NCBI GenBank assembly: GCA_937860145.1
Contig: CALMBF010000155.1
Span: forward strand, 147,719-203,065
Source: an uncultured Geobacter sp.
Lineage (GTDB): Bacteria; Desulfobacterota; Desulfuromonadia; Geobacterales; DSM-12255
DNA: 55,347 nucleotides
Direction of reading: 5' to 3'
Below, piece after piece: positions 15,722-30,813 of this stretch. Below the pieces are notes generated by a model. It was given only the letters and a program-made list of their open reading frames with translations, had not been told where the DNA came from and ran no database searches. The position numbers and the translations under genes are program-made. Every line of letters begins with the position of its first letter. The stretch's first letter is position 1.

Positions 15722-15782
15722 ATCCTACCTGAGTAATTGGTCGTTCGTCAAATAATAAATATAACGTCCATAAATAAAGTAG
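15722..15782 (-). promoter_or_regulatory. Promoter with upstream box, importer/nitrogenase-like operon
   Basis: On the minus strand: -35 TTGACG (15746-15751), an 18-base spacer, -10 TAGGAT (15722-15727). A 24-bp box (15759-15782) of the form CTAC-N7-ATGGAC-G-TTATAT ends exactly seven bases before the -35. The same layout occurs at 17.1, 18.9 and 30.7 kb. A box just upstream of the -35 is the usual place for an activator. Rrf2 proteins are the obvious candidates. Confidence 0.65.
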
Positions 15783-15835
15783 ATAACTTAGTGGCCACTT
15801 AAGCCAACTATGCGTAATGCGAGTTATTTCATGAC

Positions 15836-15982
15836 TCAGGCAGTTCCGACAATTCGTGCAGTGGTCACTGTCGACACGCCACGGAATATGGTGGCGACTG
15901 TGCCGATTGCATCAGCGAAGGTGATCGCCTGTTTCATGCGGCGAGCCTCATATTGTTGCAAGCCATAAGCCGGCTTTATCAT
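15836..15982 (-). CDS. Possible small protein coupled to rhodanese (48 residues)
   Basis: A short frame whose ATG overlaps the rhodanese stop codon as ATGA, the usual sign of translational coupling. The product begins MIKPAYGLQQYEARRMK and continues with a hydrophobic, Thr/Ala/Val-rich stretch (ITFADAIGTVATIF), so it could be an amphipathic or membrane-associated peptide. No cysteine and no recognised family. The region downstream up to the next promoter box (15782) holds nothing else. It may be a real small gene or the remnant of a longer one. Confidence 0.45.
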   Translation of the reverse strand: MIKPAYGLQQYEARRMKQAITFADAIGTVATIFRGVSTVTTARIVGTA

Positions 15983-16956
15983 TTCCCGGTCAAAGCCAGG
16001 TTTGTTCCAGCGGGATTGCCGCTGACGATCGGCAGGTTTTTGTCCTTGGACCAGCCAATCCAGGAGCTGTCGTAGTTGTGTAGCTTTTCCAGAGGCCAGC
16101 CGGCCAGATAGAGGGTGAAGATGGCCTGGGTGGAACGGACCCCGGACTGGCAGTAGAAATACTGTTCCTTGCTCTTGTCATAGCCCATTTTTTTCAATAA
16201 CGGTTGAACCTCGGACGCTGACAGCCATTCGCCCTGATTATCCTTTTTCTTGAAGATGATCCAGTCACTGTGGGAACTGCCGGGGATGCGTCCTGCCCGG
16301 TAGGCCCCCTTTTTCAACTCTTCGCCGGTGAATTCCTTGATATCCCGATTATCCCAGATCTGTGACGAGTTGCTTTTTTGCGCGGCAATGATATCAGCTG
16401 TATCCACCCTGAGTGCAGGGGATAAAACCCTGGCGATAAAATCGCCGCTGCGGAGTGGCGCAGCAGGGGCGAGCAGATCAACCGGATAACTGGCCCCTTT
16501 CCATGCCTTGATGCCGCCGTCCAGTACCCGCACGTCACCCTTGCCGTAGTAGGTGAAGGCCCACCAGAGCCGGGTCGCGTCGTACTTGGTGTCATAGATC
16601 ACCACTTTGGAATCCCGGTTTATGCCCAGGCTCTGTGCCAGCTTGGTGAAGCTGGCGGCATCGGCCAGGTTGCCGCTGACGCCGTTCTGGGTTTCGGGCG
16701 GGGCTTCGATGGCAGGGCGGTCAACCTGGAAAGAGCCCGGAATATGCCCCAGGCGGTATTCGACATTACTCTCCGCAGCCAGGATCACCAGTCCCGGGGT
16801 TTTGGTGTCGAGTAGCTGTTTCAGTTCCTGCACGGTAATCAGGGCACTGCCGCGCGGGTATCCCTTGTAGCCATTTTGCTGTGCAAAAGCAGTGACTGTC
16901 AGCAGAATCAGCAGGGCCAGAACGGTCAGCAGGGTGCGTATCGGTCGTATTTTCAT
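15979..16956 (-). CDS. Exported tandem-domain rhodanese (thiosulfate sulfurtransferase)
   Basis: A 325-residue protein with a signal peptide (cleavage after AFA-Q) and two rhodanese domains. The first (LVILAAESNVEYRLGHIPGS) lacks an active-site cysteine loop. The second has the catalytic Cys in YFYCQSGVRSTQ, about residue 268. It should move sulfane sulfur from thiosulfate or similar donors to an acceptor in the periplasm. Its own activator-type promoter and leader RNA copy 5 place it in the sulfur regulon. A 48-residue frame overlaps its stop. Confidence 0.85.
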   Translation of the reverse strand: MKIRPIRTLLTVLALLILLTVTAFAQQNGYKGYPRGSALITVQELKQLLDTKTPGLVILAAESNVEYRLGHIPGSFQVDRPAIEAPPETQNGVSGNLADAASFTKLAQSLGINRDSKVVIYDTKYDATRLWWAFTYYGKGDVRVLDGGIKAWKGASYPVDLLAPAAPLRSGDFIARVLSPALRVDTADIIAAQKSNSSQIWDNRDIKEFTGEELKKGAYRAGRIPGSSHSDWIIFKKKDNQGEWLSASEVQPLLKKMGYDKSKEQYFYCQSGVRSTQAIFTLYLAGWPLEKLHNYDSSWIGWSKDKNLPIVSGNPAGTNLALTGK

Positions 16957-16974
16957 GGTTAACTCCTTTGAAAT

Positions 16975-17045
16975 AAAAAAAGGCCAGGGTCGGTCGGGGC
17001 GTACTAACCCTTTCCGTGCCTGGCCTCCAGTTTTTCTGGTCAGCC
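16975..17045 (-). promoter_or_regulatory. Leader RNA copy 5: antiterminator/terminator switch
   Basis: On the minus strand: GGCT-GA-CCAG, loop AAAAA, CTGG-A-GGCC. AGGCCAGG pairs with CCTGGCCT before six Ts, with a 31-base insert between the arms (the longest but one). It lies between the promoter at 17074 and the rhodanese gene. Confidence 0.85.
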
Positions 17046-17073
17046 TCGATACCGCGACTACAAGTTTTGTTGA

Positions 17074-17133
17074 ATAGTACCTGCGTAAAACTCAGATGTC
17101 AATAATAAAATATAACATCTATAAAAGTTATAG
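17074..17133 (-). promoter_or_regulatory. Promoter with upstream box, rhodanese gene
   Basis: On the minus strand: -35 TTGACA (17097-17102), 17-base spacer, -10 TACTAT (17074-17079). A box of the form CTAT-N7-ATAGATG-TTATAT (17110-17133) ends seven bases before the -35, as at 15.7, 18.9 and 30.7 kb. Confidence 0.7.
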
Positions 17134-17173
17134 TTTAATCTGTTTGTGGAGACTTTCTCATTTCAGGTAATGG

Positions 17174-18796
17174 CTAAAGAATGTAGTCGGTTGAAAGAAA
17201 ATGTGATTTTCTGTCTCTGACGATCTGGTTGATAATATCCTTGTTAGTGTCGGCATCCCGGGTGGCAACTACGGTGCGGATTGACAGGACCCGCAGTGCG
17301 TCGATTATCGATTGGGTCCCCTCTGCCGAATTTTTACGGCCATTGAAGGGGAAGGTGTCGGGGGAGCGCTGGCACTGGCTGTTGATATTGATCCGACAGA
17401 CCTGGTTGACCAGCGCATCCATTACCTGGGCGATACGGTCCGGCGCCGTGCCGAATATGCTGGCCTGCTGGCCGTAGTCGGAAGAGACCACGTAGTCGAT
17501 GACTTCCTGGATGTCGTCATAGGGTACCACCGGTACGACCGGACCGAACTGTTCCTCGTTGTAGATCCGCATGGCCGGCGTCACGGGATAGAGCAGGGCA
17601 GGGTAGAAGAATGATCCGGCCACTGTTCCTCCCCCGGGGTTGACGACCCGGGCACCATGTTCCAGGGCGTCTTCTACCAGTCCGGTGAGGTTGGAGGGCT
17701 TTTCCGGCTCGGGCAGCGGGGTGATGGTGACACCATCTGACCACGGCATGCCGCAGCAAAGACCGTTGATGCCGCTGGCGAGTTTCTCCAGAAATGGTTC
17801 GGCAACAGAACGGTGGACAAAGATGATCTTCAAGGCAGTACAGCGCTGGCCATTGAACGTCAGGCTGCCGCTCAGGCATTCGCTGGCGGCCAGGTCGAGA
17901 TCGGCATCCGGGAGGACAACGGCCGGATTCTTCGCGTCAAGGCCGAGCACGCAGCGGAGGCGGTGAGGGCGGGGGTGCATGGCACGCAGGCCGTCGGCAA
18001 CGCGGCTGGTGCCGATGAAGGCAAGGACGTCGATGTCGCCGGAAGCCATGAGCGGCGGGACAACGACTTCACCGTCGCCATAGACCGTGTTGACAACGCC
18101 GGGGGGGAAGGAATCACGGAATGCCTCCAGCAGCGGCTGGAAGAGGAGGATGCCGAAACGGGGCGGTTTGATGATGGTAGTGTTCCCCTTGAGCAGGGCC
18201 GGGATCAGGGTAGTGAACGTTTCGTACAGGGGGAAATTGTACGGTCCCATGCAGAGGACAACCCCCAGAGGCGCACGGCGGACCTGGCCGATGATCCCCT
18301 GCTGGATGATGAACCGGGACGAAGCGCGGTCAAGCTCCTTGAGTGCGTCGATGGACTCGGTGATACAGGCAACGGCCCGGTCGAATTCCCGCTGTGCCTC
18401 CCGCAGCGGCTTGCCGACTTCCCACATGAGCAGGCGGATTATCTTCTCCCGCTTGCCGTTCATCTCTTTGGTGAAACGCTGGACAGATTCAATTCGCTCG
18501 CCGACCGACATGGTGGGCCAGGCGCCTCTGCCGTCGGCATAGGCGCGCTTGGCGGCTGTGAGCGCCTGCAGGGCTGCTTCGGGCGTCAGGAGCGGGGCAT
18601 GGCCGACAACCTGCGGTACAAGTCTGTCCTTTTCTGTTACCCACAGCGGTGAAATTACCGTCTGTAACGGTCCCTTCCAGGTCAGAAGCGTGCCGTCCAC
18701 CAGGTATTCCCGCTGCTCGAGCGGATGGTTCAGGCTGGCTTCTGAAGGTATGTTGCACGGTTCAGGGAACACGGAGTCATGTAGCAATGATCTCAT
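17174..18796 (-). CDS. GapN-like non-phosphorylating aldehyde dehydrogenase
   Basis: A 540-residue aldehyde dehydrogenase. The catalytic cysteine is in FNGQRCTALK (about residue 320), with the cofactor segment PALLKGNTTIIKPP and the fingerprint YNEEQFGPVVPVVPY near the end. The family match is to long GapN-type enzymes that oxidise glyceraldehyde 3-phosphate to 3-phosphoglycerate with NADP. The usual ELGGK motif reads LGLDAKNP, so the general-base Glu is not in its normal place; I believe this is common in this long subgroup. The gene stands alone behind leader RNA copy 6 and an activator-type promoter. NADPH supply for sulfur reduction is one possible reason. The start lacks a clear ribosome site. 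Confidence 0.75.
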   Translation of the reverse strand: MRSLLHDSVFPEPCNIPSEASLNHPLEQREYLVDGTLLTWKGPLQTVISPLWVTEKDRLVPQVVGHAPLLTPEAALQALTAAKRAYADGRGAWPTMSVGERIESVQRFTKEMNGKREKIIRLLMWEVGKPLREAQREFDRAVACITESIDALKELDRASSRFIIQQGIIGQVRRAPLGVVLCMGPYNFPLYETFTTLIPALLKGNTTIIKPPRFGILLFQPLLEAFRDSFPPGVVNTVYGDGEVVVPPLMASGDIDVLAFIGTSRVADGLRAMHPRPHRLRCVLGLDAKNPAVVLPDADLDLAASECLSGSLTFNGQRCTALKIIFVHRSVAEPFLEKLASGINGLCCGMPWSDGVTITPLPEPEKPSNLTGLVEDALEHGARVVNPGGGTVAGSFFYPALLYPVTPAMRIYNEEQFGPVVPVVPYDDIQEVIDYVVSSDYGQQASIFGTAPDRIAQVMDALVNQVCRININSQCQRSPDTFPFNGRKNSAEGTQSIIDALRVLSIRTVVATRDADTNKDIINQIVRDRKSHFLSTDYIL

Positions 18797-18857
18797 CCTT
18801 TCAGCGCGGTGCTTGACATTGCCCCGTACAGTCCGCGCTCACCTGCTCATAGTTTCA

Positions 18858-18907
18858 ATAAAAGAGGCCAAGGATGTTTTCCCTGGCCTCCATCTGTCTG
18901 GTCAGCC
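18858..18907 (-). promoter_or_regulatory. Leader RNA copy 6: antiterminator/terminator switch
   Basis: On the minus strand: GGCT-GA-CCAG, loop ACAG, ATGG-A-GGCC; the inner stem has one mismatch, the weakest of the eight. AGGCCAGGG pairs with CCTTGGCCT (one bulge) before TTTT. It lies between the promoter at 18945 and the GapN-like gene. Confidence 0.75.
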
Positions 18908-18944
18908 GAACCGAGTGTTTTGTTCAACTAGGTTCTTGCAACAC

Positions 18945-19005
18945 ATCGTAGAAGATTGCCCAACCGCCGGTCAAGCTCAAAATATAATGTCTATCATGTT
19001 AGTAT
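18945..19005 (-). promoter_or_regulatory. Promoter with upstream box, GapN-like gene
   Basis: On the minus strand: -35 TTGACC (18969-18974), 18-base spacer, -10 TACGAT (18945-18950). A box of the form ATAC-N7-ATAGAC-A-TTATAT (18982-19005) ends seven bases before the -35. Confidence 0.65.
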
Positions 19006-19050
19006 TTATTGTCCTTGTCCTTGCTTTTAGCCTGACGACGCAGTCGGTCA

Positions 19051-19506
19051 TCATCTCCCTATCTTCTCCATGAAAACGATCCCGAAACTTCCAGGAATCT
19101 CCTTCCACTCGTAGATTTGGTACCCAAGACGTTCATACAGCTGGATATTACGCACGCTGAGTTCCCCGGTAAAGAGCCGGAACACCTCCGCCTGCGGGAA
19201 CTCAGCCTCGATGGCTGCCATAAGGGCCGTGCCGACCCCTCTCCCCTGCATCTCCGGATGCACCATGAGTCGTCCTATCAGGCAACGCCCCTTGCTCATC
19301 CGGCCGTTCACAGAACCGACGATACGATCCGCCTCAACCGCCTTGAGGACGGTCTTACGGGAATAGCTCTCCCTCAACTCGGAGAGGGTCTGGGTGAGAG
19401 GCGGGATAGATTCGTCGCCGTACAGTTTTGCTTCGCTCAGGTAGGCGACTTTCTGCAGGGCGAGTATTTCCTCGGCGTCGTCGACGGTGGAGCGTTGAAT
19501 AATCAT
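19051..19506 (-). CDS. GNAT-family N-acetyltransferase
   Basis: A 151-residue GNAT protein. The acetyl-CoA binding loop is visible in GRLMVHPEMQGRGVGTALM (about residues 76-94), followed by LYERLGYQIYEW, the usual C-terminal strand pattern. The acceptor cannot be predicted. It overlaps the upstream membrane-protein gene by four bases (ATGA), so the two form a unit. It lies next to the sulfur cluster but has no leader RNA of its own. Confidence 0.85.
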   Translation of the reverse strand: MIIQRSTVDDAEEILALQKVAYLSEAKLYGDESIPPLTQTLSELRESYSRKTVLKAVEADRIVGSVNGRMSKGRCLIGRLMVHPEMQGRGVGTALMAAIEAEFPQAEVFRLFTGELSVRNIQLYERLGYQIYEWKEIPGSFGIVFMEKIGR

Positions 19507-19898
19507 GGTGTGAATCCTCTGAGACGGGCAGTCAACCAGGGCGAAACGGCAATTGTCAGGAGCACCAGCAGCCAGAGATTGCCGGTGGTGGGGTCATACG
19601 CCTGCAACAGCTCGCCCCACGGCTTCCGTGCCACCAGCCGTCCGAAGAGAAACTCGAAAGCGACGGTCATGACGAGCCAGGCGATGCCGATAAGTCGATA
19701 GTGGACTAATTTCAGAGGGCCGAGCCGGGGGAGGATGCTATAAGTGAGGAGGAAGAAAAGAATGGAGCAGAAGATGCCGGAGAGCGGTAGTGCAAGCCGC
19801 TGGCCGAGGAGCGGCACGAGGCATTTCTCGCGGAGGAGGCCGTTCAGGATGGCGATGGGGATGAAGGTGGCCCAGATGGTGGTGGTTTTCAATATCAT
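19503..19898 (-). CDS. Four-helix integral membrane protein, unknown function
   Basis: A 131-residue protein from ATG 19898 (TTG 19919 is possible). Four hydrophobic segments are visible: TTTIWATFIPIAILNGLL, GIFCSILFFLLTYSIL, LIGIAWLVMTVAFEFLFG and NLWLLVLLTIAVSPWL. I recognise no family with certainty. It is translationally coupled to the GNAT gene and begins 39 bases after the SIR2 gene ends, so it may be part of the same inserted block or older flanking sequence. Confidence 0.65.
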   Translation of the reverse strand: MILKTTTIWATFIPIAILNGLLREKCLVPLLGQRLALPLSGIFCSILFFLLTYSILPRLGPLKLVHYRLIGIAWLVMTVAFEFLFGRLVARKPWGELLQAYDPTTGNLWLLVLLTIAVSPWLTARLRGFTP

Positions 19899-19937
19899 CT
19901 TCAAGTCTTCACGCCCCAACCCCGAAATCTCCCCCCC

Positions 19938-22900
19938 TCATCGTGCACTCCACCGCCGCTTCAGTTCAATTAATCGAGAATCATTCAACAAAGAAGGGTC
20001 AGCTTCAGCAATTTTCACAAGAACATCTTCAATGTCATATGTCCATTTCGTCGCGTTTTCAGGTAAAACAGCCCATAGAAGAGCCAATGTCTTTTCCGGG
20101 AATTTTGCGACAATATCGGTCTTTGTCCCACGTAAGTGAGGCAGGAAAAAACCTTCCTCATCAATTTTAGTCAATAGTGGCAAAATTATATCGGCGATAA
20201 TGAGGAACACTGCTTCATTTGAAAAGGCCAGATCACAAAGCTTAGCGGACATTTTCGGGCTCTTTGCCTGTTTCTGCCGCGGCCATACCTCTGTAAAGAA
20301 TATAGGCAAGTTCGTTTTCCAAGAGCCTTTCCCCTTTTCAGAGGACCATCGCTCCAAATGCCAAATTATCTGCCCACGGAATTCATCATCTGCATTAAGC
20401 AAAACATTTCGCATCTCATCATTTGAAATGAAACGCCTCCCGGTTTTCTTGTGAATACTCCCCCAACCTGCCAAAAGAATTCCCGATAACACATTTACCT
20501 CTCTTCGACCGGCAACATGCTTATGCAAGGCAAGCTCTAACAGCCAAGGCTGCAAGCGAAGGTAGAGTTTTTCGTCAGGGACTCTTGATGCCCAGAAAAA
20601 ACCGTCCCAAAATGCCTCTTGATCCTCGTCTTCACTCTCAAGGGCAGAGAGAAGATTCTTATCGGTCCAAGATGGATCAATATAAAAGAACCAATTCAGG
20701 TTAAAAGCCAACATTACCAATGCGTGCCGCCTGTGGTCGCCGGACAAGCCAAGCAGTTCTTCGACATGGTTGGTCCACGGGATTGGGAAGCCTTTCCCAG
20801 CTTTCAATCCCTCCTTCTGCGGATCATTCATGATGGCTTGCGCCAATTTGCCAACCGGCGCATTCAAAGCTTCCGTTGCCCATGCCGGGTCCTTATTCCC
20901 GCGAACCAGAGAAGTTTTGGAGATATCAGCTTCAGCCTTCAGAACACTGACTATCTTAGACCATACCCGTTCGAATTGTTCTGGATAGTCGGCAAGCAAG
21001 ATCTTGCTGGACTTTTGCAGCCAATCCGATACCGGGTATATAAATTCAGCAACTGCGTCGACAGGATAAGTTGATATTCTATGGGCAATCAGAGCAGAAA
21101 AGCGCGGTTTATCTTTCTCTCTCGCAGAAGAAAAAAGAAACTTTCTCCAGGCCCACTCCGGCCACTCTCCCCGCTTCGCAGAGTTGTTGAGCGCCGAAAA
21201 TGCACGAATTGGTCGTTCTGAAGCCAATCCCGCAAATGGATCTTTTTCTACGAATCCTTCATCCATTCGACCGCTAAGTTCCCTGGCCTTGCCGAGAAGT
21301 GTTTCCAATGGTTCAGCAAGCAGAACTGAAAAATCTGAGTCAGTGCGGACAGTGCCACCACGGCCTTCCATGGAAGCTGCGGCCTTATCTGAATAGCGTT
21401 GTTGCCATTCAGGTGCAAGCTCCTGTAACTTTTCGCTTTCCTTTTGTATGTCGAAGCTGAAGCTGCATCCTTTTTCAGAAAGCCAATGAATACGGTTCAG
21501 GGAGTCCCAGGCGCGACGCTCTTCATATTTGGTCTTTTCCTCACCTTTCCATCTTGAACGCCCACGGAGCAATCGTTTCTCAAGGCGTATTCTTATCGTG
21601 GAGGGAAAATCATTCCAGCGTTTGCCCAAAGCGAGCATGAGATCTCTCTGGTGGCGACTATCCCAAAAAACGTCATCATTCAGACTGCAAATCAACTGTC
21701 CAGCTTCGGCACCAGCAAGAAGCTCTTGACGGCCGGAGACCCATATTCTTAATCTGGCAAAGACCTTATCATCATCTGTCCACCAAGCCAGATACTCATG
21801 CTTTGCTGCTTTCTGGTCGTGAACAATTAGCCTTCTAATAAGACCTACATAGAAAAGGAAGGTGTGTGAAATGCCGTAATGTCGATCAGATGACTCTCCC
21901 TCCAAATCCGGGTCCGGTTCTATTGGACAGAGAGTGATGTAGCTGAATCCTTCAAGTTCTTTCTCAAGGGAAACTGCATGTTCTAAATTCTTCCGGAATT
22001 CACGAACAGCAGTTACGAGATATTCGTCTGGGATTCCTACCTTCTCATGAAACTCCAAATACTTGACGTCCAGATTCACCATTTCCCTGACACTAACAGC
22101 ATCAATGTTCTCCGGGGGTTTTGGTCCACTGCTATATGGCCATTCCACTTTCAAATACGGTCGCCAAATCAATGCGACCTCCCTTATCGCAGCATCAGAC
22201 CAGCCATTAAGATCAATTGAAGCCTTCAGTTGATACCATTCATGGAAGTCTTTTTTATGAGTTCCCCATGTTTCGAACACATAACGCCAGGACCGCCTGA
22301 CCTCAAGAGAGGATTCTTTTTTTCTGCGTTCAAGTTCAAACAGGATGTGATTTTGTATGTCGGGATGAAGACCGGCTTGATGCGTTGCCCACCAAACCGA
22401 TGCGGGTTGATACGATACCGCACCAATCCAAAAACCAAGTTGCCTTAATCTCTTAGGCAACGTGGGTATATTAATAGAGTAATGACCCTTTAATGCCGCA
22501 AAGTTGTTGTCTTGGAAATCTTGTCGATCAAGCCGGGTAGCGGCGAAGCAATTCCAGACGCCTTCAGGAATTTCTCTTTTTGCCATATAATCTTCTGGAC
22601 CAATCTTTTTTGGACTTGGATCACTGTCCAATCCGTATGCTTCGAAAGGATCAAAATATGGTCCTCGTTCAAAGTAACTGCCGAGATTGCCAGGCTTTAG
22701 ATATCGTATGGCAGGGTCAAAAACGCACAACCATTCTGCAGGTGGATGATTTTCAGAACCAGTGAACCTCTTTGCCCCTTCAAGAGTTGAGACAATATGG
22801 GCAACCTGTCCTCTTTCGTGAGGTAGCAGTGATTCTGGCCCCTTTTGAGCCATATCAATAACATTTCCATACCATAAATCTGGGTTCTGCGCTCTGCAAG

Positions 22901-23765
22901 CCCAGGCGCGCAACGTATCCCAAAGAGATTTATGATTATCTGTATCGTCATAGGCGATTGGCAGAACGCCCTTATGTCGCCACTTGGCCTCTGCATCACT
23001 TTGAGTGCCGGCCTGAAAGGCATACATTCCTGACAAGGATTCCTGATGCCTGTTCAGGGCTTCAAGCAGATACAGAACGGGCGGGTCATCAGCAGCATAT
23101 CCAACGAAAACAACGATATATTTTTCCAGAATTGATCGGATGAACCGGGTTGCCCATCCATCTGCAAGGTAAGCATGACCAAATTCTGAACTCGATAAAA
23201 CAAAGCCATCGCCGAATGCCCCGCGATACTCTTTGTCTACATGGCCATGGAGATGAATGATCCCTTCGAATTCGTCATTACGCGTCGGATCAGGCAGGCG
23301 GGGTGATCTGTGACATGGAAGAGAATCGTCACACGACTCGAAAAGGAGGTCGAAGTTCGTTGTGACAAGTCGGGTTTTACCGTCAGTTGACCTCGCCAAA
23401 TCAAGCATTATCCGGTGGGCTGAAAGATCAACTTCCGAGGTTGGCTTAAGCGCATTAGCAACCGATGCTTCTATCTCGCGAGCAAGGAAATCTCGCTCCA
23501 GAAGGCCGAAAATCCTGTCAGCCGAAATCAGTCCACTAATTCCTATTCTAAGGTCTAGGTCTCTCGCTTCCGTTATGAGCTTTCTTACTGGATCGTCTGC
23601 GGTAACGCCCAAACTGTCGGTTACGTTTTTCGCCAATCCGAAGAAATCCAAGAGGCCGGCGCGTGCACGAGAAACGCCAGCACCGCAGAAGAAAATTACT
23701 CTCCCTTCGTCCCTGGCGACGAGTAATTCATCAGGTATTGATGGACCGTCAGCAAGAAATCGCAT
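19938..23765 (-). CDS. SIR2-domain protein with large C-terminal region (DUF4020-like)
   Basis: A 1275-residue protein. The N-terminal 280 residues are a SIR2-like NAD-binding domain: FFCGAGVSRARAG (25-37), TTNFDLLFE (near 139), IIHLHGH (near 169) and VFVGYAADDPPVLYLLEAL (near 215). The rest, about 1000 residues, is helix-rich with many Trp and resembles the DUF4020 region found behind such SIR2 domains. Proteins of this build (compare DSR1, DSR2 and ThsA) are anti-phage NADases that deplete NAD on infection; I infer that role here. The gene is more AT-rich than its neighbours, a sign of transfer. A possible nuclease gene lies 58 bases upstream. Confidence 0.8.
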   Translation of the reverse strand: MRFLADGPSIPDELLVARDEGRVIFFCGAGVSRARAGLLDFFGLAKNVTDSLGVTADDPVRKLITEARDLDLRIGISGLISADRIFGLLERDFLAREIEASVANALKPTSEVDLSAHRIMLDLARSTDGKTRLVTTNFDLLFESCDDSLPCHRSPRLPDPTRNDEFEGIIHLHGHVDKEYRGAFGDGFVLSSSEFGHAYLADGWATRFIRSILEKYIVVFVGYAADDPPVLYLLEALNRHQESLSGMYAFQAGTQSDAEAKWRHKGVLPIAYDDTDNHKSLWDTLRAWACRAQNPDLWYGNVIDMAQKGPESLLPHERGQVAHIVSTLEGAKRFTGSENHPPAEWLCVFDPAIRYLKPGNLGSYFERGPYFDPFEAYGLDSDPSPKKIGPEDYMAKREIPEGVWNCFAATRLDRQDFQDNNFAALKGHYSINIPTLPKRLRQLGFWIGAVSYQPASVWWATHQAGLHPDIQNHILFELERRKKESSLEVRRSWRYVFETWGTHKKDFHEWYQLKASIDLNGWSDAAIREVALIWRPYLKVEWPYSSGPKPPENIDAVSVREMVNLDVKYLEFHEKVGIPDEYLVTAVREFRKNLEHAVSLEKELEGFSYITLCPIEPDPDLEGESSDRHYGISHTFLFYVGLIRRLIVHDQKAAKHEYLAWWTDDDKVFARLRIWVSGRQELLAGAEAGQLICSLNDDVFWDSRHQRDLMLALGKRWNDFPSTIRIRLEKRLLRGRSRWKGEEKTKYEERRAWDSLNRIHWLSEKGCSFSFDIQKESEKLQELAPEWQQRYSDKAAASMEGRGGTVRTDSDFSVLLAEPLETLLGKARELSGRMDEGFVEKDPFAGLASERPIRAFSALNNSAKRGEWPEWAWRKFLFSSAREKDKPRFSALIAHRISTYPVDAVAEFIYPVSDWLQKSSKILLADYPEQFERVWSKIVSVLKAEADISKTSLVRGNKDPAWATEALNAPVGKLAQAIMNDPQKEGLKAGKGFPIPWTNHVEELLGLSGDHRRHALVMLAFNLNWFFYIDPSWTDKNLLSALESEDEDQEAFWDGFFWASRVPDEKLYLRLQPWLLELALHKHVAGRREVNVLSGILLAGWGSIHKKTGRRFISNDEMRNVLLNADDEFRGQIIWHLERWSSEKGKGSWKTNLPIFFTEVWPRQKQAKSPKMSAKLCDLAFSNEAVFLIIADIILPLLTKIDEEGFFLPHLRGTKTDIVAKFPEKTLALLWAVLPENATKWTYDIEDVLVKIAEADPSLLNDSRLIELKRRWSAR

Positions 23766-23823
23766 TTATTGTGAACTCCTATTTACGATTATCAGAAATA
23801 CCGACTTCACCGATCATACTACA

Positions 23824-25077
23824 TCAGTTCCCCCTTGCCACCTTCAGCAAAACCCGCCAATCATCCCCAAACCGCCCCATCGCCTCGCAGTTACAGGAGA
23901 TATCCGAAAAGAGCAGATAGCGGAAAGCCACGCTCGCCAGGCTACGAAACGCCGGCCGCTGGAGCTGAGCAACGATCTCTTTCTCCCGGTTGTCCGGTGC
24001 GACGAGAAAGAAGTCGTATTTCTTATCACCCAGTGAGGATGCCAGATCCAGGAGTCGCAGCATCCCGGAATAGATGGAGGTGCTCTTCTCGATCTCGAAG
24101 GCGCACTCGATCTGTTGGCTCTCCCGGTTGATCCAGATGACATCGATGAGTGAAACCGTCTTCAGAGTTTCCGGCGCCATATCCAGCGGTGGCAGTTCGG
24201 CCAGCGTCAGCGACTGCAGACAGACGCCACCATGGGAGCGCATCCGGTCGTTGGCGGCGACCCAGACATCGTAGCCGAGCTCGCGCCCCATCCGCGTCAG
24301 GGTCAGCTGCATCTCCAGGTGCGAATTCTCCTCCTCCTGCGCCCGACGCACCTCCTCGTGCCGCTTCTTCAGCGCCTTCTCCAGCTTGGCTCGGTCGAAC
24401 TCCAGTGCCGTTTCGAAATTGCCGGCAAGGGCGATTTTTCCCACCCCTACGTCGAAGAGAAGCCCCGAGATGGCTCCCAGGTCCTTGGAGAGCGCCGGCT
24501 GCAGCTCCTCGTTCGCCTGCATGATCGTCTCGCGCATCTCAAGGTACGCCGGCCAGGAGCCGAGCTTTTTCCTGTCGCCAAAGACGGTATTGAAACCGTT
24601 CAGCATGGCGGTGTTGAAAGGGGGCATGTGGGTCGGGTGAAGGAAGTAGAGTATGTTTGCTACGGCCGGGCCGAGACCCTTGATACGCCGGTCATCCAGG
24701 GTGAGGATCTCGCGGATGATCCGCTCGGCGGTGGGTGCGGCGAGGCAACTATCCAGGAAGCGGCCGAAGGCGTCCTTGTTCTCTTCGTTCTCGTAGATGT
24801 CGGGAATACGAAGCTTCGGCTTCCAGTAAAAGGGGTGCGCCGCACCCTCGAAGACCTGTTTCTGCTCTGTGATGCATGTTAGGACAAACTCCAGCGGCGA
24901 CCCTTTGAAGTCGTTGGGGAAGGTGCCGCTCTTAATCGCTTCGATAACGTCGATGACCCCGCGCCGGATAGAGCGAAACGCCTTCATCCGGGTTTCGTTG
25001 TCGATGAACCAGGTGTTGTAGACCGACTCCGGGTCCGACTTGTAGCGCCGGACAAGCTCCTTCACGTTCGCCGCCAT
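23824..25077 (-). CDS. Possible nuclease with HhH-like segment, defence-associated
   Basis: A 417-residue protein from ATG 25077, which follows AGGAGGG. In the middle lies KGLGPAVANILYFLHP, resembling a helix-hairpin-helix DNA-binding turn. Residues about 240-275 form a charged coiled coil (KKRHEEVRRAQEEENSH). Near 335-360, SLIDVIWIN and IECAFEIEKSTS resemble the D...ExE/K pattern of PD-(D/E)XK nucleases. The function is not proven; restriction-type cleavage is the likeliest. It is 58 bases upstream of and co-directional with the SIR2 gene, so the two may act as one system. Confidence 0.55.
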   Translation of the reverse strand: MAANVKELVRRYKSDPESVYNTWFIDNETRMKAFRSIRRGVIDVIEAIKSGTFPNDFKGSPLEFVLTCITEQKQVFEGAAHPFYWKPKLRIPDIYENEENKDAFGRFLDSCLAAPTAERIIREILTLDDRRIKGLGPAVANILYFLHPTHMPPFNTAMLNGFNTVFGDRKKLGSWPAYLEMRETIMQANEELQPALSKDLGAISGLLFDVGVGKIALAGNFETALEFDRAKLEKALKKRHEEVRRAQEEENSHLEMQLTLTRMGRELGYDVWVAANDRMRSHGGVCLQSLTLAELPPLDMAPETLKTVSLIDVIWINRESQQIECAFEIEKSTSIYSGMLRLLDLASSLGDKKYDFFLVAPDNREKEIVAQLQRPAFRSLASVAFRYLLFSDISCNCEAMGRFGDDWRVLLKVARGN

Positions 25078-25217
25078 CTTCCCTCCTGAAACGGAAATCA
25101 TTTGATTCTGCGAATGCCGCTTAGAGCCGGAATAGTCGGCCGGACCGACTGACATTCAGTGAGCAGTTCTTAACTACTCCTTTCAACATCTCCACGTCAA
25201 ACCTTTTAAAGCAGTTC

Positions 25218-25246
25218 ACCCTGCCATATATGATAGGGCAGGGTGA
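25218..25246 (-). terminator. Hairpin after the corrinoid operon
   Basis: CACCCTGCC (25218-25226) and GGCAGGGTG (25238-25246) form a perfect 9-bp stem about 60 bases past the last gene of the corrinoid operon. The T-run is weak. It separates that operon from the defence block. Confidence 0.5.
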
Positions 25247-25305
25247 GGAAGCCTGGTGTATTTATCTTCCGCAGATGGTAGTCCGCTTCATGCTATCCGG
25301 GGCAG

Positions 25306-26130
25306 CTATATCCCGGAACCATCCATGACGACGCCGGATTCCATTTGGGAAATGGTCTCGTACCATTTTCTGCCCCAGTGCTCAAGTTCGGTTTCATCAA
25401 AAAATGTCGGCCGTTTAGCAATCTCCGCATTCCCTATCTGCTTTGCAAGGATGCGATAGAGAATAGAGTCGTGACTGTTGGGAGCGGCTTCCAGCAGGGT
25501 TTCTCCGAGATAGTCGCACATGGATACCATCATGGAGCTCTGAAAACTGGCGATGATTGATGTCCCGGTTCGGGATGCGAAATCATTGACCATCAATTCA
25601 TGAACCTTGTTTTTGATGTTGTTGATGATGACTCCCGCGAACCTGCAGTCGCTGGATTCCAGGTTGTTCATCCAGGCAAACAACTCGTTCAGCGTCTCAA
25701 TCGATGCCATGTCGCCTGTGGAGACAGCGAGCAGGCGAGGTGCCGAGTGGGCAACGGGGGGGAGGATGAAGCTGCTACCGGGGTACTGCCACAGGTCATG
25801 GATGACAAATCGGGGGTTGTAATGCGCAATGAGAGCGTTCAGCCGGGAAGCAAGAAGGGGTGATGCCGTTTGATCCTCCAGTTCGCCGGCTTCGATGCAG
25901 AGCGAATGCTTGTAGCCAATGGTGAACAGCGGTTCACCCGTTGCAGCACCGTCTTCGGAAACCGTTATGAGTTTGCTCCCCCCTCTCAGGGCAATGGTTG
26001 ATCGCTGGCGCGGATCATAGCCGATCATGGCAACACTATGACCGGATTCCGCCAGCGCGGCTGCCAGATTGGCAGCAGTCGTCGATTTACCCACCCCTTC
26101 TCTGCCGGCAATGAGAATATGTTCGGCCAT
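25306..26130 (-). CDS. NifH-like ATPase lacking the cluster cysteines
   Basis: A 274-residue P-loop protein of the NifH/MinD class. Walker A is GREGVGKSTT (9-18), followed by the NifH-like LAAALAESGHSVAMIGYDP. The two cysteines that hold the Fe-S cluster in NifH are absent: the first region reads EAGELEDQTAS (80-90) and the second WQYPGSSF (114-121). It ends in MESGVVMDGSGI, clearly related to the end of the Cys-containing NifH-like protein at 32618. So it cannot donate electrons as NifH does. As the last gene of the corrinoid operon, an ATP-dependent assembly or activation role (compare CooC) is likely. Confidence 0.75.
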   Translation of the reverse strand: MAEHILIAGREGVGKSTTAANLAAALAESGHSVAMIGYDPRQRSTIALRGGSKLITVSEDGAATGEPLFTIGYKHSLCIEAGELEDQTASPLLASRLNALIAHYNPRFVIHDLWQYPGSSFILPPVAHSAPRLLAVSTGDMASIETLNELFAWMNNLESSDCRFAGVIINNIKNKVHELMVNDFASRTGTSIIASFQSSMMVSMCDYLGETLLEAAPNSHDSILYRILAKQIGNAEIAKRPTFFDETELEHWGRKWYETISQMESGVVMDGSGI

Positions 26131-26139
26131 TGATACCTC

Positions 26140-27810
26140 CTAGAACTTCATCGCTTCCATGAACGCCCGGTCAAAGGCTGGATTGGCTGCCAGTTCAACG
26201 ACCTTTACGCTATCGACCAGTTCAAGCAGTTCGCTGCGAAGAGTATGGTTCAGTAGCATCATTTCGCCGCCGCTTTTGGCCGTATTTCCGAGAAAGGTTA
26301 CCTTGCCGGCGACTTCCGCCGGCAGCAGCCCCAAGGTCAGCAGGCTTTCCTCTCGCAGGTGAAAACCGAAGGAGCCGGCGATGTAGACCCGGTCTATCTC
26401 CTCTGCTGTCGTGCTGTTGGCTTGGAGGAGCAGGTCGATGCCGGCACGTATCGCTCCCTTGGCCAGTTGCACCTGGCGGACATCCGTCTGGGTGAACGAG
26501 AGCACGTCGGTGAGCGTAAGGAGCGTCTTGCCATTGATTTTCTGCACGCGTGAGGCGAGTGCATCGGGGAGGTTGCCAGCCGATGGGTCGGTAAATCGGC
26601 CGCTTTGACCGATGACGCCGGTACGCACCAGTTCCGCGGTCAGGTCCATCAAGCCGCTGCCGCAGATTCCCTTAGCGGCGCCGCCGCCGATGGTTTTCAG
26701 AGAGAGGTCAGAAAGGGGAGAAAAACTGACCTCCTCGATGGCACCGGCGGCAGCGCGCATTCCGTAGGAGATGTTCATTCCTTCAAAAGCCGGTCCGGCA
26801 GCGGTGGCAGTGGCGGAGAGCCTGCCGTCCCGGGCAAGGATCATTTCGCCGTTGGTGCCGATGTCGATAAACAGGGTAACGCCGGATAGCTTGTGCAGTT
26901 CTCCGGCCAGGATGCCGGCGGTTATGTCCGCGCCAACGTAGGCCGAGATGACCGGCGGCAGCCAGACAAGACCGTGGGGAGCGATTTCCAGGCCGCAGGA
27001 CGATGCCGAAAGATGGTTGCCACCCCGTATTGCCGGGTTAAAGGGGAGGCGGCCGAGGGGGGCGGGATCCACGCCGGTTGCCAGGTGGAGCATGCAGCTG
27101 TTGCCGCTGAAGATCACTTCATAGATGCTGCCGCTACCGATGCCGGCCTCTGTTGAGGCTTCCCCGATCAAGCGGTTGATTTCCGATATGAGTGAGCTGC
27201 GCAGTGTCTCCAGTCCGCCATCGTCAGCAGCAAACCTGATGCGGGAGAGTACGTCCTGACCGTACACGGTCTGCGGGTTGAGGGCGGAGCGGGAAACAAT
27301 TTCGACGCCGCTTGCCAGATCGATCAGACCCGCTGCTAGGGTGGTGGTGCCGATGTCCACGACAACACCGAAATTTTCAGAGGCACTGTTGCCCGGTTCA
27401 CGGGTCAGGACGGTGCTTCCGCCAAGCACAATTGTTTCGTCCGTGGCCGGGTCGTAGCGCTTGCTGATGAACGGATTACGTTCAATGGTATGGCTCACTC
27501 CGCCGGTAACTATCTGTAGGTCGCGCTCTTCACGCTGCGGCACGGATACGATCAGGTCGCCGTGGATTTCCGCATGACAGGCCAGCACTATGCCCGCTTC
27601 TTCCTTTTCCACCGACAGGTGGTGGGGGGCGTGGATAATCAGTTTTCCGAGGTCATCGGGCGGTATTCTGACCGCGCACTTTCCGCAGTGACCGGCTCCG
27701 TTGCAGGGGGCGTCGATAACGACGCCGGCCAGTCGGGAGGCCTGCAGGATGGTGGTCCCATGGACAACCGAAATAGGGCGATTATCAGGTATGAACGTAA
27801 TGATAGGCAT
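26140..27810 (-). CDS. Reductive activator of corrinoid protein (RACE, DUF4445 type)
   Basis: A 556-residue protein. The N-terminus is a [2Fe-2S] ferredoxin domain with C36, C42, C45 (APCNGAGHCGKC) and C78 (LACHAEI). The rest is an ASKHA-fold ATPase region: VVDIGTTTLAAGLIDL, then FIDIGTNGEMIL and AGPAFEGMNISYGM. This build is that of the ATP-dependent activators that return inactive cob(II)alamin to cob(I)alamin in O-demethylase and Wood-Ljungdahl systems. It overlaps the stop of no gene but lies directly after the methyltransferase gene (shared base 27810). Its target should be the corrinoid protein at 29899. Confidence 0.9.
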   Translation of the reverse strand: MPIITFIPDNRPISVVHGTTILQASRLAGVVIDAPCNGAGHCGKCAVRIPPDDLGKLIIHAPHHLSVEKEEAGIVLACHAEIHGDLIVSVPQREERDLQIVTGGVSHTIERNPFISKRYDPATDETIVLGGSTVLTREPGNSASENFGVVVDIGTTTLAAGLIDLASGVEIVSRSALNPQTVYGQDVLSRIRFAADDGGLETLRSSLISEINRLIGEASTEAGIGSGSIYEVIFSGNSCMLHLATGVDPAPLGRLPFNPAIRGGNHLSASSCGLEIAPHGLVWLPPVISAYVGADITAGILAGELHKLSGVTLFIDIGTNGEMILARDGRLSATATAAGPAFEGMNISYGMRAAAGAIEEVSFSPLSDLSLKTIGGGAAKGICGSGLMDLTAELVRTGVIGQSGRFTDPSAGNLPDALASRVQKINGKTLLTLTDVLSFTQTDVRQVQLAKGAIRAGIDLLLQANSTTAEEIDRVYIAGSFGFHLREESLLTLGLLPAEVAGKVTFLGNTAKSGGEMMLLNHTLRSELLELVDSVKVVELAANPAFDRAFMEAMKF

Positions 27811-28832
27811 TATTGTTCTTTCACTGTGTCGGTCATGGCGCGTATCGCCGTCAGTGTCGTTGCTGTGCTCAGTCCGCAGGCCGGCGCGATGATGTTAATG
27901 CCGTCCTTCACCAGTTGTGCCGTGTGCCGGGCCACCTTTTCCGCTTCGGTCAATTCCAGCATGAAGGTGCTGACATTCCCCATGGTGGTCAATTGAGGAA
28001 ACTCCTCCTTGAGAACGCGCAGGTTCACTAGTGCGTCGGTACTGATGGCGTTGGCCCTGAGGTGCGGCAGGGAATGTTTCACCGATTGTATCTTGCCGCA
28101 GATATGGACAATGACCGGGGCGCCGGCAGCATGGATGCCGTCGATGACCTTGTTCAGATATGGGACGGCAAACTCGTTAAAGACCTTTGGGCCAAGTATT
28201 TCACCGGTGGCGGTCGGGTCACCGATGGAGATCAGGGTAACTCCGTTGGTTATCATCTCCCTGCCGAAAGCAATTAGCAGGTCACTGACGTAATCGAGTA
28301 CCCGGTGCGAGTTTGCCGGGTCCTTGCGCAGCTCCTTGAGAAAGGTTACCGGGTCCACAATGGAGGCGGCGGTACTGATTGGTCCGGTCAGGTTGCCAAT
28401 GACCGGGCTGTCCTGATGTTGCCGGGAGATCCGGTAGCCGGCCTGGATGATTTCCACGACCCGGCCGGATTTGAGCATGGTAGCGATGTCGCGTTGCTCT
28501 ACCTGGGCTACTGACGGGAATATTTCCCGGGCGATTTTTGGTTCGCAGGCGAGGGTGCCGAAATCGATGTCGCTACCGAGCAGTTCAGCCTCCACTGTCA
28601 TGCAGAAGGGGATGCCGAGGTTTTCGAAGCCGGTCATGGCATGTATGTCAGCGGAGAGGGCGGCCATCAGCCCCCCCTCGTGGTGGGCGTCGGGGAGGGT
28701 GTTGCCGGTGCTGGTCATCACCTCGACGATGGCCGCATTCATCATGCCGCCGGTGCAGATGACTGGCGGGCGATCGACCGATTTTTTGTCAAGAACCCGC
28801 AGTAGACGTTCTTTCGGGCTGAGTGAACTCAT
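27810..28832 (-). CDS. MtaA/URO-D family cobamide methyltransferase A
   Basis: A 340-residue protein from ATG 28832, which overlaps the stop of the upstream gene as ATGA. It belongs to the uroporphyrinogen decarboxylase superfamily. The zinc motif of the methyltransferase branch is visible: HICGK (about residue 239) and a later Cys in APACGLSTATT (near 320). These residues bind zinc to activate a thiol as methyl acceptor or donor. The gene order (corrinoid protein, two such enzymes, activator) suits one enzyme moving methyl from substrate to cobamide and the other from cobamide to acceptor. Confidence 0.85.
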   Translation of the reverse strand: MSSLSPKERLLRVLDKKSVDRPPVICTGGMMNAAIVEVMTSTGNTLPDAHHEGGLMAALSADIHAMTGFENLGIPFCMTVEAELLGSDIDFGTLACEPKIAREIFPSVAQVEQRDIATMLKSGRVVEIIQAGYRISRQHQDSPVIGNLTGPISTAASIVDPVTFLKELRKDPANSHRVLDYVSDLLIAFGREMITNGVTLISIGDPTATGEILGPKVFNEFAVPYLNKVIDGIHAAGAPVIVHICGKIQSVKHSLPHLRANAISTDALVNLRVLKEEFPQLTTMGNVSTFMLELTEAEKVARHTAQLVKDGINIIAPACGLSTATTLTAIRAMTDTVKEQ

Positions 28833-29899
28833 GGATTCCTCCGTGCTAATTTTTCCAGCGTGATCGGCCAGCCAATTTCCGCCGTGGCATCGATCATCGC
28901 CTGGATGTTGGCAAATGGTGTTTCCGTGGGGAGGCTGCATCCAGAGGCAACGATATACCCCCGCGGTGAGTCGCCGGCCAGGGCCACACAGTCGTAGACT
29001 GCGTGTCTGACATCTTCAGGTGTGCCTTGCAGCATGATCTCGGAAGGTTTGATGTTTCCCATGATCCTGACCCTGTCGCCGACGGTGGTGCGTGCCTCGG
29101 CCAGGCTCGCGTCGTTGTCGATGCTCAGGCAGTCGGCCCCGGCTGCTATCATGTCGTCCCAGATACGGTTGGTCTTGCCGCAGATGTGCAGCGTGACGGA
29201 TTTGCCATGTCCATGGATGAAGCTGATCAGTTCCTTCAGATAGGGAAGGCTGAATTCACGGAACTGCTTCGGGCTGATGACCGATGTGGATGACATGGGG
29301 TCGGTCAGGCTCGGTGTGCAGTCGGCGGCGATGATGGCAGCAGCATAATTTTTGGCGCTTTCCAGCGCTACCCGGCAGAGGAGGTGCACCGCCTGCGGAT
29401 TTTTCAGGGTGAGCCTGACAAGGTTTTCCGTGCCGATCAGAAATGATGCGGTGGTGAATGGGCAGGTGAGGGCGCCGGTAACCGCAACTTCCTTACCGAC
29501 AGATTCGACAGTCAGGTTCATTGCTTCGAGATGGTGGGGGAGGTTGCCATCGCGGCGTGGATCTGCCGGTTGCAGGCGACTTATGTCGTCAACGCCGGTG
29601 ATGGCCGGTGCCGCAAGATAGGCAGTTTCATCGGTTGGATAGTGAACCCTGGCTCCCATGGCTTCGGCCAGGGTGAAGAGGTCGGTGAATACCCGGATAA
29701 CATCGTAACCGAATTTCCGGTAGGAGGCGATCTGGGCTGCGGCGATCAGTCTGCCGTTCCCCCGGAATTCGGAAACCTTTACGCCGATGACCCTGACAGC
29801 GGTATTGCCGATGATCGGTACACACGGCAAACGGTCAATGCTCTCCCCGCGCCCGTAGGCTGCGAGTCGTTCCAATGGTTTCATGGCGGCGATCGTCAT
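28829..29899 (-). CDS. MtaA/URO-D family cobamide methyltransferase B
   Basis: A 356-residue paralogue of the downstream gene. Zinc-type residues are in LHICGKTNRIWD (near 240) and ASGCSLPTETP (near 325). The segment LTGALTCPFTTASFLIG resembles the pocket region of methylthiol and methylamine-type MtaA proteins. It shares one base with the corrinoid gene stop. The two paralogues differ widely outside the motifs, which fits different methyl partners. MtbA/MtaA/MtsA enzymes normally use thiol substrates, in keeping with the sulfur regulation. Confidence 0.85.
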   Translation of the reverse strand: MTIAAMKPLERLAAYGRGESIDRLPCVPIIGNTAVRVIGVKVSEFRGNGRLIAAAQIASYRKFGYDVIRVFTDLFTLAEAMGARVHYPTDETAYLAAPAITGVDDISRLQPADPRRDGNLPHHLEAMNLTVESVGKEVAVTGALTCPFTTASFLIGTENLVRLTLKNPQAVHLLCRVALESAKNYAAAIIAADCTPSLTDPMSSTSVISPKQFREFSLPYLKELISFIHGHGKSVTLHICGKTNRIWDDMIAAGADCLSIDNDASLAEARTTVGDRVRIMGNIKPSEIMLQGTPEDVRHAVYDCVALAGDSPRGYIVASGCSLPTETPFANIQAMIDATAEIGWPITLEKLARRNP

Positions 29900-30549
29900 C
29901 AGACTGCTCCGGCTAGTTCCCTGGCGACCTTGACCGCTTCGGCGGCGTTAATTGCATAGCCGTCGGCACCGATTTTTTTGGCAAAGCCGGGTGATATGGG
30001 CCCGCCGCCAACCATCACCTTGTGCCTGTCCCGGATGTTCTCTTCCTGCAACAGGCGGACCACCTGGCCCATGCCGTCCATGGTGGTAGTCATAAGGGTG
30101 GACAGGCCGATGATAGTGGCGTTCACCTCCTTCGCCTTGTCGACAAATACACGGGGAGGGACGTCACGGCCGAGATCGTGGACTTCAAACCCGCCGGTTT
30201 CCAGCATAATCCTGACCATGTTTTTACCGATATCGTGGGTATCTCCCTCGATGACACCGATGACGACGGTCCCTTTCTTTTCACCGGTTGTTTTGAGGTG
30301 AGGCTTCAGTACATCCAGTCCGGCATACATGGCATCTGAACACATGAGCAGTTCAGGGATGAAGTACTCCTCCTCTTCGAACAGTTGACCTGCCCGCTCC
30401 ATGCCGCGGGAAAGACCGCCATCGATTGCCTCGTAGGCATCAAGCCCTTCCGCGAGGCTTTCATGGGCTGTGGCTACGGTCAACTTTTCATCCATATCCA
30501 CGACTGCGTCCGCAAGTTTCTTGAGTAAGTCCTCTTTTTTTCCTGACAT
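29899..30549 (-). CDS. Corrinoid methyl-carrier protein (MtaC/MttC type)
   Basis: A 216-residue protein with the helical cap domain first (residues about 1-90) and a B12-binding Rossmann domain after. The cobalt-ligand motif DTHDIG is at 103-108 (EGDTHDIGKN), followed by GLSTLMTTTM (S/T at the nucleotide loop) and VMVGGGPIS. It should carry a methyl group on cobalt between the two methyltransferases. It is the first gene of the operon, directly behind leader RNA copy 7. Confidence 0.92.
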   Translation of the reverse strand: MSGKKEDLLKKLADAVVDMDEKLTVATAHESLAEGLDAYEAIDGGLSRGMERAGQLFEEEEYFIPELLMCSDAMYAGLDVLKPHLKTTGEKKGTVVIGVIEGDTHDIGKNMVRIMLETGGFEVHDLGRDVPPRVFVDKAKEVNATIIGLSTLMTTTMDGMGQVVRLLQEENIRDRHKVMVGGGPISPGFAKKIGADGYAINAAEAVKVARELAGAV

Positions 30550-30571
30550 GTTCCGACTCTCCTTGTGGAAA

Positions 30572-30632
30572 ATAAAAAAGGCCGGAGCCCCCGTGCAATA
30601 GGGGATCTCCGGCCTCCAGTTTTCTGGTCAGC
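30572..30632 (-). promoter_or_regulatory. Leader RNA copy 7: antiterminator/terminator switch
   Basis: On the minus strand: (T)GCT-GA-CCAG, loop AAAA, CTGG-A-GGCC; the first outer pair is lost. AGGCCGGAG pairs with CTCCGGCCT, with an inner CCCC/GGGG arm, then six Ts. It lies between the promoter at 30650 and the corrinoid operon. Confidence 0.85.
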
Positions 30633-30649
30633 ACGAATTGATGTAAGCT

Positions 30650-30710
30650 AGCCTAGCAGAGCATGATTATTGGCGTCAAGATAAAAATACAAAGACTATC
30701 AATATTGTAT
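30650..30710 (-). promoter_or_regulatory. Promoter with upstream box, corrinoid operon
   Basis: On the minus strand: -35 TTGACG (30674-30679), 18-base spacer, -10 TAGGCT (30650-30655). A box of the form ATAC-N7-ATAGTC-T-TTGTAT (30687-30710) ends seven bases before the -35. Its outer ATAC/GTAT arms make the dyad most obvious here. Confidence 0.65.
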
Positions 30711-30784
30711 TCAACTCTGGTGGCCAATACGCATGTGCTCCCGTAGACCTCGCAATGGCTGAAATCTCAGATTTAAAAAACTCG

Positions 30785-30813
30785 TTGACATTGCACCGAT
30801 ATTCTTTTATAAC
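30785..30813 (+). promoter_or_regulatory. Promoter of the second Rrf2 gene
   Basis: TTGACA (30785-30790), 17 bases, TATAAC (30808-30813): a near-consensus housekeeping promoter. ACTATAGT, a perfect 8-bp palindrome, lies just downstream (about 30820), where a repressor could bind. The promoter diverges from that of the corrinoid operon. Confidence 0.7.

Follow-up and report, generated by a model that had tools for sequence, protein, structure and literature searches.

In a 55,347-nucleotide stretch of an uncultured Geobacter sp. genome (GenBank assembly GCA_937860145.1, contig CALMBF010000155.1, forward-strand positions 147,719 to 203,065; here called the window), four minus-strand promoters of a sulfur-scavenging gene island, S1 to S4, carry a shared operator whose distance from a TTGAC -35 element is the same at every site. 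This operator is linked to a single clade of Rrf2 regulators and occurs across genomes at two positions, upstream of the -35 and downstream of the -10. The operator proper is a 17-bp dyad, TCTAY-N7-ATAGA, and we propose that it is bound by a CysK-linked, four-cysteine, probably Fe-S Rrf2 protein encoded at 30842..31303 (plus strand) and by its paralogs. At S1 to S4 the box lies at about -60, with an A/T-rich tract before a near-consensus -35 that fits the C-terminal domain of the RNA polymerase alpha subunit, and from there the bound regulator would most likely activate the sulfur-scavenging operons in class I fashion, with a leader RNA acting as a second check, probably by attenuation. From a box just downstream of the -10, the same regulator would repress the gene that encodes it and, probably, also the sulfate-type transporter operon of the island; the signal is predicted to be sulfur, cysteine or Fe-S supply. 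We put the probability of this dual-position model at roughly 0.52. In its most explicit form it is tentative and slightly short of even odds: an Fe-S Rrf2 protein that is a class I activator at -60 and, when bound at +1, represses both its own synthesis and sulfate uptake, the sign being set by position only, with the leader as an attenuator below both kinds of promoter.

Direct reading of the minus strand confirmed the box-plus-promoter design at all four sites and a leader RNA copy downstream of each, as the initial annotation had described. S1 consists of TTGACG, an 18-bp spacer and TAGGAT (15722..15751) with the operator TCTACTTTATTTATGGA at 15767..15783, and it serves genes for a NifX-like protein, an ATP-binding cassette (ABC) transporter with three NMT1/SsuA-like binding proteins, and a nitrogenase-like, NifDK-like pair. 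S2 (TTGACA, 17 bp, TACTAT; 17074..17102) precedes a rhodanese gene and has its operator ACTATAACTTTTATAGA at 17118..17134, and S3 (TTGACC, 18 bp, TACGAT; 18945..18974), with the operator AATACTAACATGATAGA at 18990..19006, precedes an aldehyde dehydrogenase gene. S4 (TTGACG, 18 bp, TAGGCT; 30650..30679), with the operator AATACAATATTGATAGT at 30695..30711, is followed by genes for a corrinoid protein, two URO-D methyltransferases, a RACo-like protein and a NifH-like protein. Each operator lies 15 bp upstream of its -35. The TAnnnT form of the -10 and the 18-, 17-, 18- and 18-bp spacers had been given correctly, and the TTGACR form of the -35 holds at three sites but not at S3. The box had been drawn as 24 bp long; it ends seven bases before the -35 at all four sites but matches loosely at S1, S3 and S4, which have CTAC or ATAC in place of CTAT, with ATGGAC at S1 and ATAGTC and TTGTAT at S4 as further deviations. 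What remains of those 24 bp outside the dyad reads as an A/T-rich, UP-like tract. The seven-base spacing, exact in the window, is a local feature, because in relatives the distance from dyad to -35 varies from 13 to 18 bp.

That the box at S1 to S4 is more than chance follows from an unsupervised expectation-maximization motif search of the 170 bp upstream of 48 leader-pattern matches in the window and in relatives, which returned the same box (tCTAtAAAAtttATAGAttAtATAgtTT, the dyad with an A/T-rich tail). The dyad stands upstream of the -35 at 15 of these 48 matches (by 14 to 18 bp; by 15 bp at the four window sites) and at or close after the -10 at 8, and the site table or reading by eye adds three more of the latter kind (L044, L072 and the plus strand of L074); leaders inside operons, read by eye, have it in neither position. 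A scoring matrix built from 23 rrf2-promoter boxes of other genomes, none of them from the window, gives 13.5, 20.0, 10.6 and 10.5 bits at S1, S2, S3 and S4, and the distance to TTGAC is exactly 15 bp every time. In Markov-shuffled versions of the same 180 bp, a random position reaches the score of the respective site with a probability of 5e-5 to 2.5e-4, where 5e-5 is the floor of 20,000 draws. Over the whole window, 8 matches reach at least 13 bits (0.25 expected) and 13 reach at least 10 bits (2.0 expected); a match at 20290, inside a coding region, is probably due to chance.

The distribution of the box over rrf2 genes ties it to one clade, by which we mean the CysK-linked, four-cysteine Rrf2 proteins that are 46-100% identical to the window protein. 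With leave-one-out matrices, 29 of the 34 clade rrf2 genes examined from outside the window had a box of at least 10 bits in the 100 bp before the gene (2.9% under a Markov null), and none of nine other rrf2 genes (30-37% identical), sampled from the less similar matches, had one. These 34 come from 39 full-length clade matches; the two window genes were left out, as were three genes of genomes G016 and G019 whose box is of the upstream type and lies further up. Clade genes missing the box are L107 (8.9 bits), L090 (7.5 bits) and the group L104/L110/L111 (0.3 bits or less). At clade genes the dyad is mostly close upstream of the start codon and usually just after the -10, so that an operator covers the regulator's own start region, and this placement suggests autorepression. 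The same arrangement is seen in the window, where the rrf2 gene at 30842 has a promoter of its own (TTGACA-17-TATAAC; 30785..30837, plus strand) with a 14.9-bit operator at 30821-30837, downstream of the -10 in the position of a repressor site. The second rrf2 gene of the window, at 6617, stands behind leader copy F and is without a box. Among relatives in named genomes, a set in which some loci belong to the same genomes as our G-numbered ones and from which L192 was excluded (its match starts at residue 29), the box is kept at 12 of 19 genes, including one in a Nitrospirae metagenome-assembled genome (L177, 71% identical; 14.4 bits) and two in Xanthobacteraceae (L185 and L186, 45% identical; 14.1 bits). 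The initial annotation had pointed to the Rrf2 proteins as binders of the box; the tie to the clade bears this out, binding itself stays a prediction, and we consider the pairing of regulator and box highly probable.

The position of the operator is also constrained across genomes. A scan of 38 genomes for CTAY-N7-ATAG followed by TTGAC at a distance of 5 to 35 bases gave 89 matches, of which 22 fell into the three bins 16-18 and the other 67 into the remaining 28 bins (2.4 per bin; p 3e-5); among A/T-rich matches only, 17 were in the peak and 13 elsewhere (p 2e-10). The scan uses no leader information; five of the 22 peak matches are leader-linked by reading, and the 16-18 bins were picked after leader-linked sites had been seen. 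The mirror scan, measured from TTGAC forward to the box, has its peaks at distances of 25 and 27 bases (17 and 11 of 120 matches), which is just after the -10. With +1 assumed seven bases after the -10, 32 upstream-type boxes have their centers at -57 to -62 (median, -61), a range limited by a gate of 13-19 bp, and 55 downstream-type boxes have a median center of +2. These sites are no census, as the loci were fetched by leader, Rrf2 or box pattern matches; they include the near-identical copies L060/L061 and, at L007 (plus) and L010 (minus), two boxes read as upstream-type that count as downstream-type on the opposite strand. On the same assumption about +1, the dyads of S1 to S4 have their centers at -59 to -60, upstream of an intact -35, as would the operator of a class I activator, which lies near -61. 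The 15 bp adjoining the -35 are 84% A/T at 31 upstream-type sites and 68% at 54 downstream-type sites (p 2.7e-8), as expected for binding by the alpha C-terminal domain and equally for a plain UP element. Near position 130000 of the window's own contig (C155; L010/L057), one box seems common to two divergent promoters, being downstream-type for a plus-strand leader gene and upstream-type (16 bp) for a minus-strand metK-like gene.

It is the position near -60, together with an A/T-rich tract that fits the alpha C-terminal domain, that leads us to class I activation at S1 to S4. Two further points favor activation from -60. Leader promoters lack a strong second box, and in the eleven genomes that by our tally have only one clade Rrf2, the upstream boxes mostly precede genes of sulfur uptake or biosynthesis while the rrf2 gene itself has a downstream box. 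We regard activation from -60 as rather probable. The initial annotation had taken the fixed phasing as good evidence for an activator that touches RNA polymerase; the phased, shared operator and its activator-like position stand, and activation itself stays a prediction. We also tried the quality of the -10 as an indicator of sign and set it aside, as only one of two comparisons was significant: -10 elements are weaker in the leader subset of upstream-type sites (3.57 versus 4.18 matches, p 0.009).

Several findings weigh against the dual-position model. Some concern the box itself: S3 and S4 are weak alone, falling only in the class of at least 10 bits, and raw counts of the two box-plus-promoter patterns did not exceed those of a reversed-pattern control (23 versus 33 and 33 versus 35), which is why we relied on spacing histograms. 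Such observations would fit a likeness arising by chance in A/T-rich intergenic DNA. Against this explanation, to which we give a negligible chance, speak the independence of the training set, the exact spacing at all four sites, the same layout in related operons of other families and the spacing peak. Others concern the regulator: 7 of the 19 named rrf2 relatives, the more distant ones, are without the box, and in genome G009 there are boxes and leaders although no Rrf2 of the clade is present; nothing obvious beside the G009 boxes, where only lists of short open reading frames (ORFs) were read, presents itself as a regulator. Some related operons also depart from the layout: an S4-like operon (L062) has a box of no more than 5.9 bits, and at the S2-like gene of G028 a leader is present but an upstream box is missing. 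Still others concern sign. The -10 elements of upstream-type sites are not weaker overall (p 0.95). CysK-, NifB- and transporter-like genes have the box upstream of the -35 in some genomes and downstream of the -10 in others, and the occurrence of the same kinds of gene under both positions sits badly with opposite signs. A second box of at least 10 bits (11.5-22.9) lies 63-173 bp after the -10 at 7 of the 32 upstream-type sites, and at S2 a weak second box (TCAACAAAACTTGTAGT, 9.0-9.2 bits; 17057..17073, minus strand) directly follows the -10, so that S2 may have both operator positions.

The findings on sign could be accommodated if Rrf2 repressed from both positions in the manner of CymR, keeping sulfur genes off when sulfur is plentiful: a box after the -10 would block RNA polymerase, and a box near -60 would bar the alpha C-terminal domain from the A/T-rich tract or loop to a second operator. 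Along with the mixed positions at like genes, the second boxes fit such an arrangement, since five of the seven (L041, L130, L131, L142 and L144) account for all but one, L011, of the six upstream-type sites before a gene for a transporter-binding protein; the other two are L095 and L125. The near-consensus -35 elements, with which the promoters may need no activator, point the same way, as does RisR of Myxococcus, a distant Rrf2 protein described in the accessible part of its report as the repressor of both its operons (PMC9973013). With repression it is not easy to account for the sharp peak around -60, which leaves 15-18 bases free ahead of the -35, or for the lack of second operators at the leader promoters: within 220 bp after the -10, no second box of at least 10 bits was found at any of the 14 leader-labeled upstream-type sites or at S3, nothing above 3.8 bits was found at S1, S3 and S4, and S2 has only its 9.0-bit box. 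Repression from both positions is in our view unlikely. Because second boxes cluster at transporter promoters and not at leader promoters, the latter look like single-operator, activator-like designs and the former like two-operator designs.

A different division of labor would have another regulator of similar operator taste, such as a LysR protein, activate from -60 and leave only the downstream boxes to Rrf2. LysR regulators often bind near -65, and CTAT-N7-ATAG also fits their T-N11-A rule, so that both the position and the dyad are compatible with this idea, as are the G009 boxes that lack a clade Rrf2. Against it, the boxes at the two positions share much the same consensus, and no LysR-like ORF was noticed in reading the translations, although no scan of the ORFs for helix-turn-helix families was made; we think a second regulator quite improbable. 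Two Rrf2 paralogs could also share the operator and act with opposite signs, one as an autorepressor and one as an activator encoded within upstream-type operons. The window gene at 6617-7078 does lie downstream of the S1 genes, and the second rrf2 gene of G016 and two of G019 stand behind an upstream-type promoter with a leader. The second copies form no common group in the tree, which leaves a dedicated activator paralog unsupported, and both kinds of site occur in the eleven genomes that have only one clade Rrf2; this arrangement is accordingly very unlikely. We retain the dual-position model, with one regulator at both kinds of site.

The two window proteins belong to the Rrf2 family by the Pfam domain, scoring 130.2 and 118.2 bits against a curated cutoff of 30, and reach neither the CymR equivalog NF047409 (67.2 and 65.1 bits; cutoff, 195) nor the IscR equivalog TIGR02010 (76.3 and 66.9 bits; cutoff, 207.55), both of NCBIfam. 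The start of the regulator at 30842..31303 was chosen by likeness to relatives, and its cysteines are C91, C100, C103 and C109; the second protein (6617..7078, minus strand), of the same clade and 58% identical, lies behind leader copy F and a small ORF. C91, C103 and C109 occur in all 49 aligned rows of at least 44% identity and C100 in 48 of them; three of the cysteines are common to all 61 aligned Rrf2 rows, and C100 is present in 3 of the 12 others. An Fe-S cluster is likely. The nearest solved structures by sequence are the Rrf2-family regulator 4cic (72.5 bits), CymR 2y75 (54 bits) and IscR 4chu (45.1 bits).

Among known systems, IscR of Escherichia coli resembles the proposed regulator in family, in position-dependent repression and activation and in its cysteine-bound Fe-S cluster, which is predicted here, and differs in that the box of the window promoters is near -60, that a fourth cysteine is conserved and that sulfur genes rather than Fe-S assembly genes are served. 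It had been cited as a precedent for activation by an Rrf2 protein. The family connection holds, but the parallel is inexact: in the accessible part of its report, IscR at the activated ydiU promoter occupies -58 to -28, overlapping a poor -35 for which it compensates, and is treated as a class II case (PMC8561392), whereas here the box ends 15 bp before a near-consensus -35, so that activation by Rrf2, if it occurs, would differ in mechanism. CymR of Bacillus and Staphylococcus shares the family, the cysteine and sulfur genes and the link to CysK; the Bacillus protein, according to the portion of the source available, binds DNA in complex with O-acetylserine thiol-lyase and binds no Fe-S cluster (PMC9338935), unlike the window proteins with their four conserved cysteines (in 48 or 49 of the 49 clade rows) and scores below the CymR cutoff. 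RisR of Myxococcus xanthus is likewise a deltaproteobacterial Rrf2 regulator with, in the sections available, a palindromic operator over promoter elements (PMC9973013). In its accessible passages, the description of type 1 mlp clusters (PMC10418091) resembles the S4 operon in the corrinoid protein, UroD-type methyltransferases, reactivase-type protein and nearby nitrogenase-like genes; a text search of that paper found no mention of Rrf2, and those passages contain neither operator nor leader.

Activation from a position near -60 has its closest parallels in proteins unrelated to Rrf2: class I activators, among them CRP with its site at -61.5, and CysB, which also represses its own gene. If the model holds, a class I activator and repressor of the Rrf2 family would amount to a CysB-like sulfur switch built from a different protein, and we judge the dual-position sulfur regulon a candidate new form within known Rrf2 regulation. 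Should sign follow operator position, the family would be extended beyond class II activation by IscR, and the sites would make up a natural series of promoters differing in position alone. Nitrogenase-like and corrinoid methyltransferase genes serve organic sulfur scavenging in many anaerobes, and how they are switched on is little described in the literature we found; the candidate regulator, the 17-bp operator and the promoters described here make a two-way sulfur switch directly testable. Judged by title or the opening of the abstract, we found no report of this operator or regulon, a weak negative because subscription papers were thinly covered, and neither is described in the accessible parts of PMC545781, PMC7726332, PMC10418091, PMC9973013, PMC9338935, PMC8561392, PMC3543383 and PMC3403914.

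The leader RNA has a hairpin, GCTGACC-AG..TGGAGGCC, 17 to 49 bases after the -10 of S1 to S4, and a terminator-like hairpin; a GGCC is common to both, and the whole looks like an attenuator. Copies A (15607..15672), B (16975..17044), C (18860..18906) and D (30569..30632), all on the minus strand, have terminator ends counted by hand. Two more pattern copies (7315, minus; 32539, plus) are without such a promoter. The pattern occurs eight times in its own genome, always on the window's contig, and in 23 of 38 genomes, where some matches are chance-like and lack hairpin pairing. Rfam found only three tRNAs in the window at the gathering threshold, and a permissive search of 15560-19020 gave four matches, all below gathering scores, with no family for the leader. 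A leader type in which GGCUGACC-RG..YGGAGGCC overlaps the terminator is seen at 7290-7338 (minus), 32539-32597 (plus) and 1170-1189 (plus) and in relatives L041-L076. By eye, stem pairs change among AG/CU, GG/CC and UG/CA, and the leader also occurs inside operons without a promoter. At L127, L128 and L129, upstream of a gene that is MetY-like by eye, the ribosome binding site coincides with a leader-like hairpin. The 5' part of this hairpin is complementary to a GTCAGC stretch upstream that could be its competitor, possibly making this a translational version of the leader. Elsewhere on the window's own contig (108000-147900; L057 and L204) there are leaders with downstream-type boxes and more genes for nitrogenase-like component 1.

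The upstream box and leader are kept at related operons in three other families of the order, namely at an S1-like operon (L045, NifX-like protein 51% identical), an S2-like gene (L055, 69%) and an S4-like operon (L065, 72%). On another contig of the same genome, C127, a gene for an 81% identical aldehyde dehydrogenase is divergent from an 87% identical rrf2 gene, with a 10.5-bit box 16 bases before ATGACG and no clear -10, which is no more than suggestive.

Besides the operons of S1 to S4, the island encodes CysK, a sulfite/nitrite-reductase-like protein, two PAPS-reductase-family proteins and an ABC transporter that we take, from its likeness, to be of sulfate type. The boxes downstream of the -10 at the promoters of rrf2 and of this transporter operon had not been reported by the initial annotation. 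The transporter promoter (TTGACT-18-TATTAT; 37173..37223, plus strand) has its operator at 37207-37223, and a second operator, ACTATAAAGTCTATAGA (21.4 bits), lies at 37275..37291 (plus); a C-run/G-run stem-loop is found between the two at about 37229-37257. Another operator, TCTATCATGTCTATAGA (31322..31338, plus; 20.9 bits), stands between rrf2 and cysK, for which we chose by eye the ATG at 31381 (31381..32334, plus) of an ORF listed from 31348. At 670..686 (plus), the operator ACTATTAAATAAATAGA lies downstream of a TTGACA and before an ORF that is glutaredoxin-like by eye. Two small proteins that by eye are DUF2292/YezD-like, at about 7096-7278 (minus) and 32335-32517 (plus), adjoin rrf2 or cysK and leader copies.

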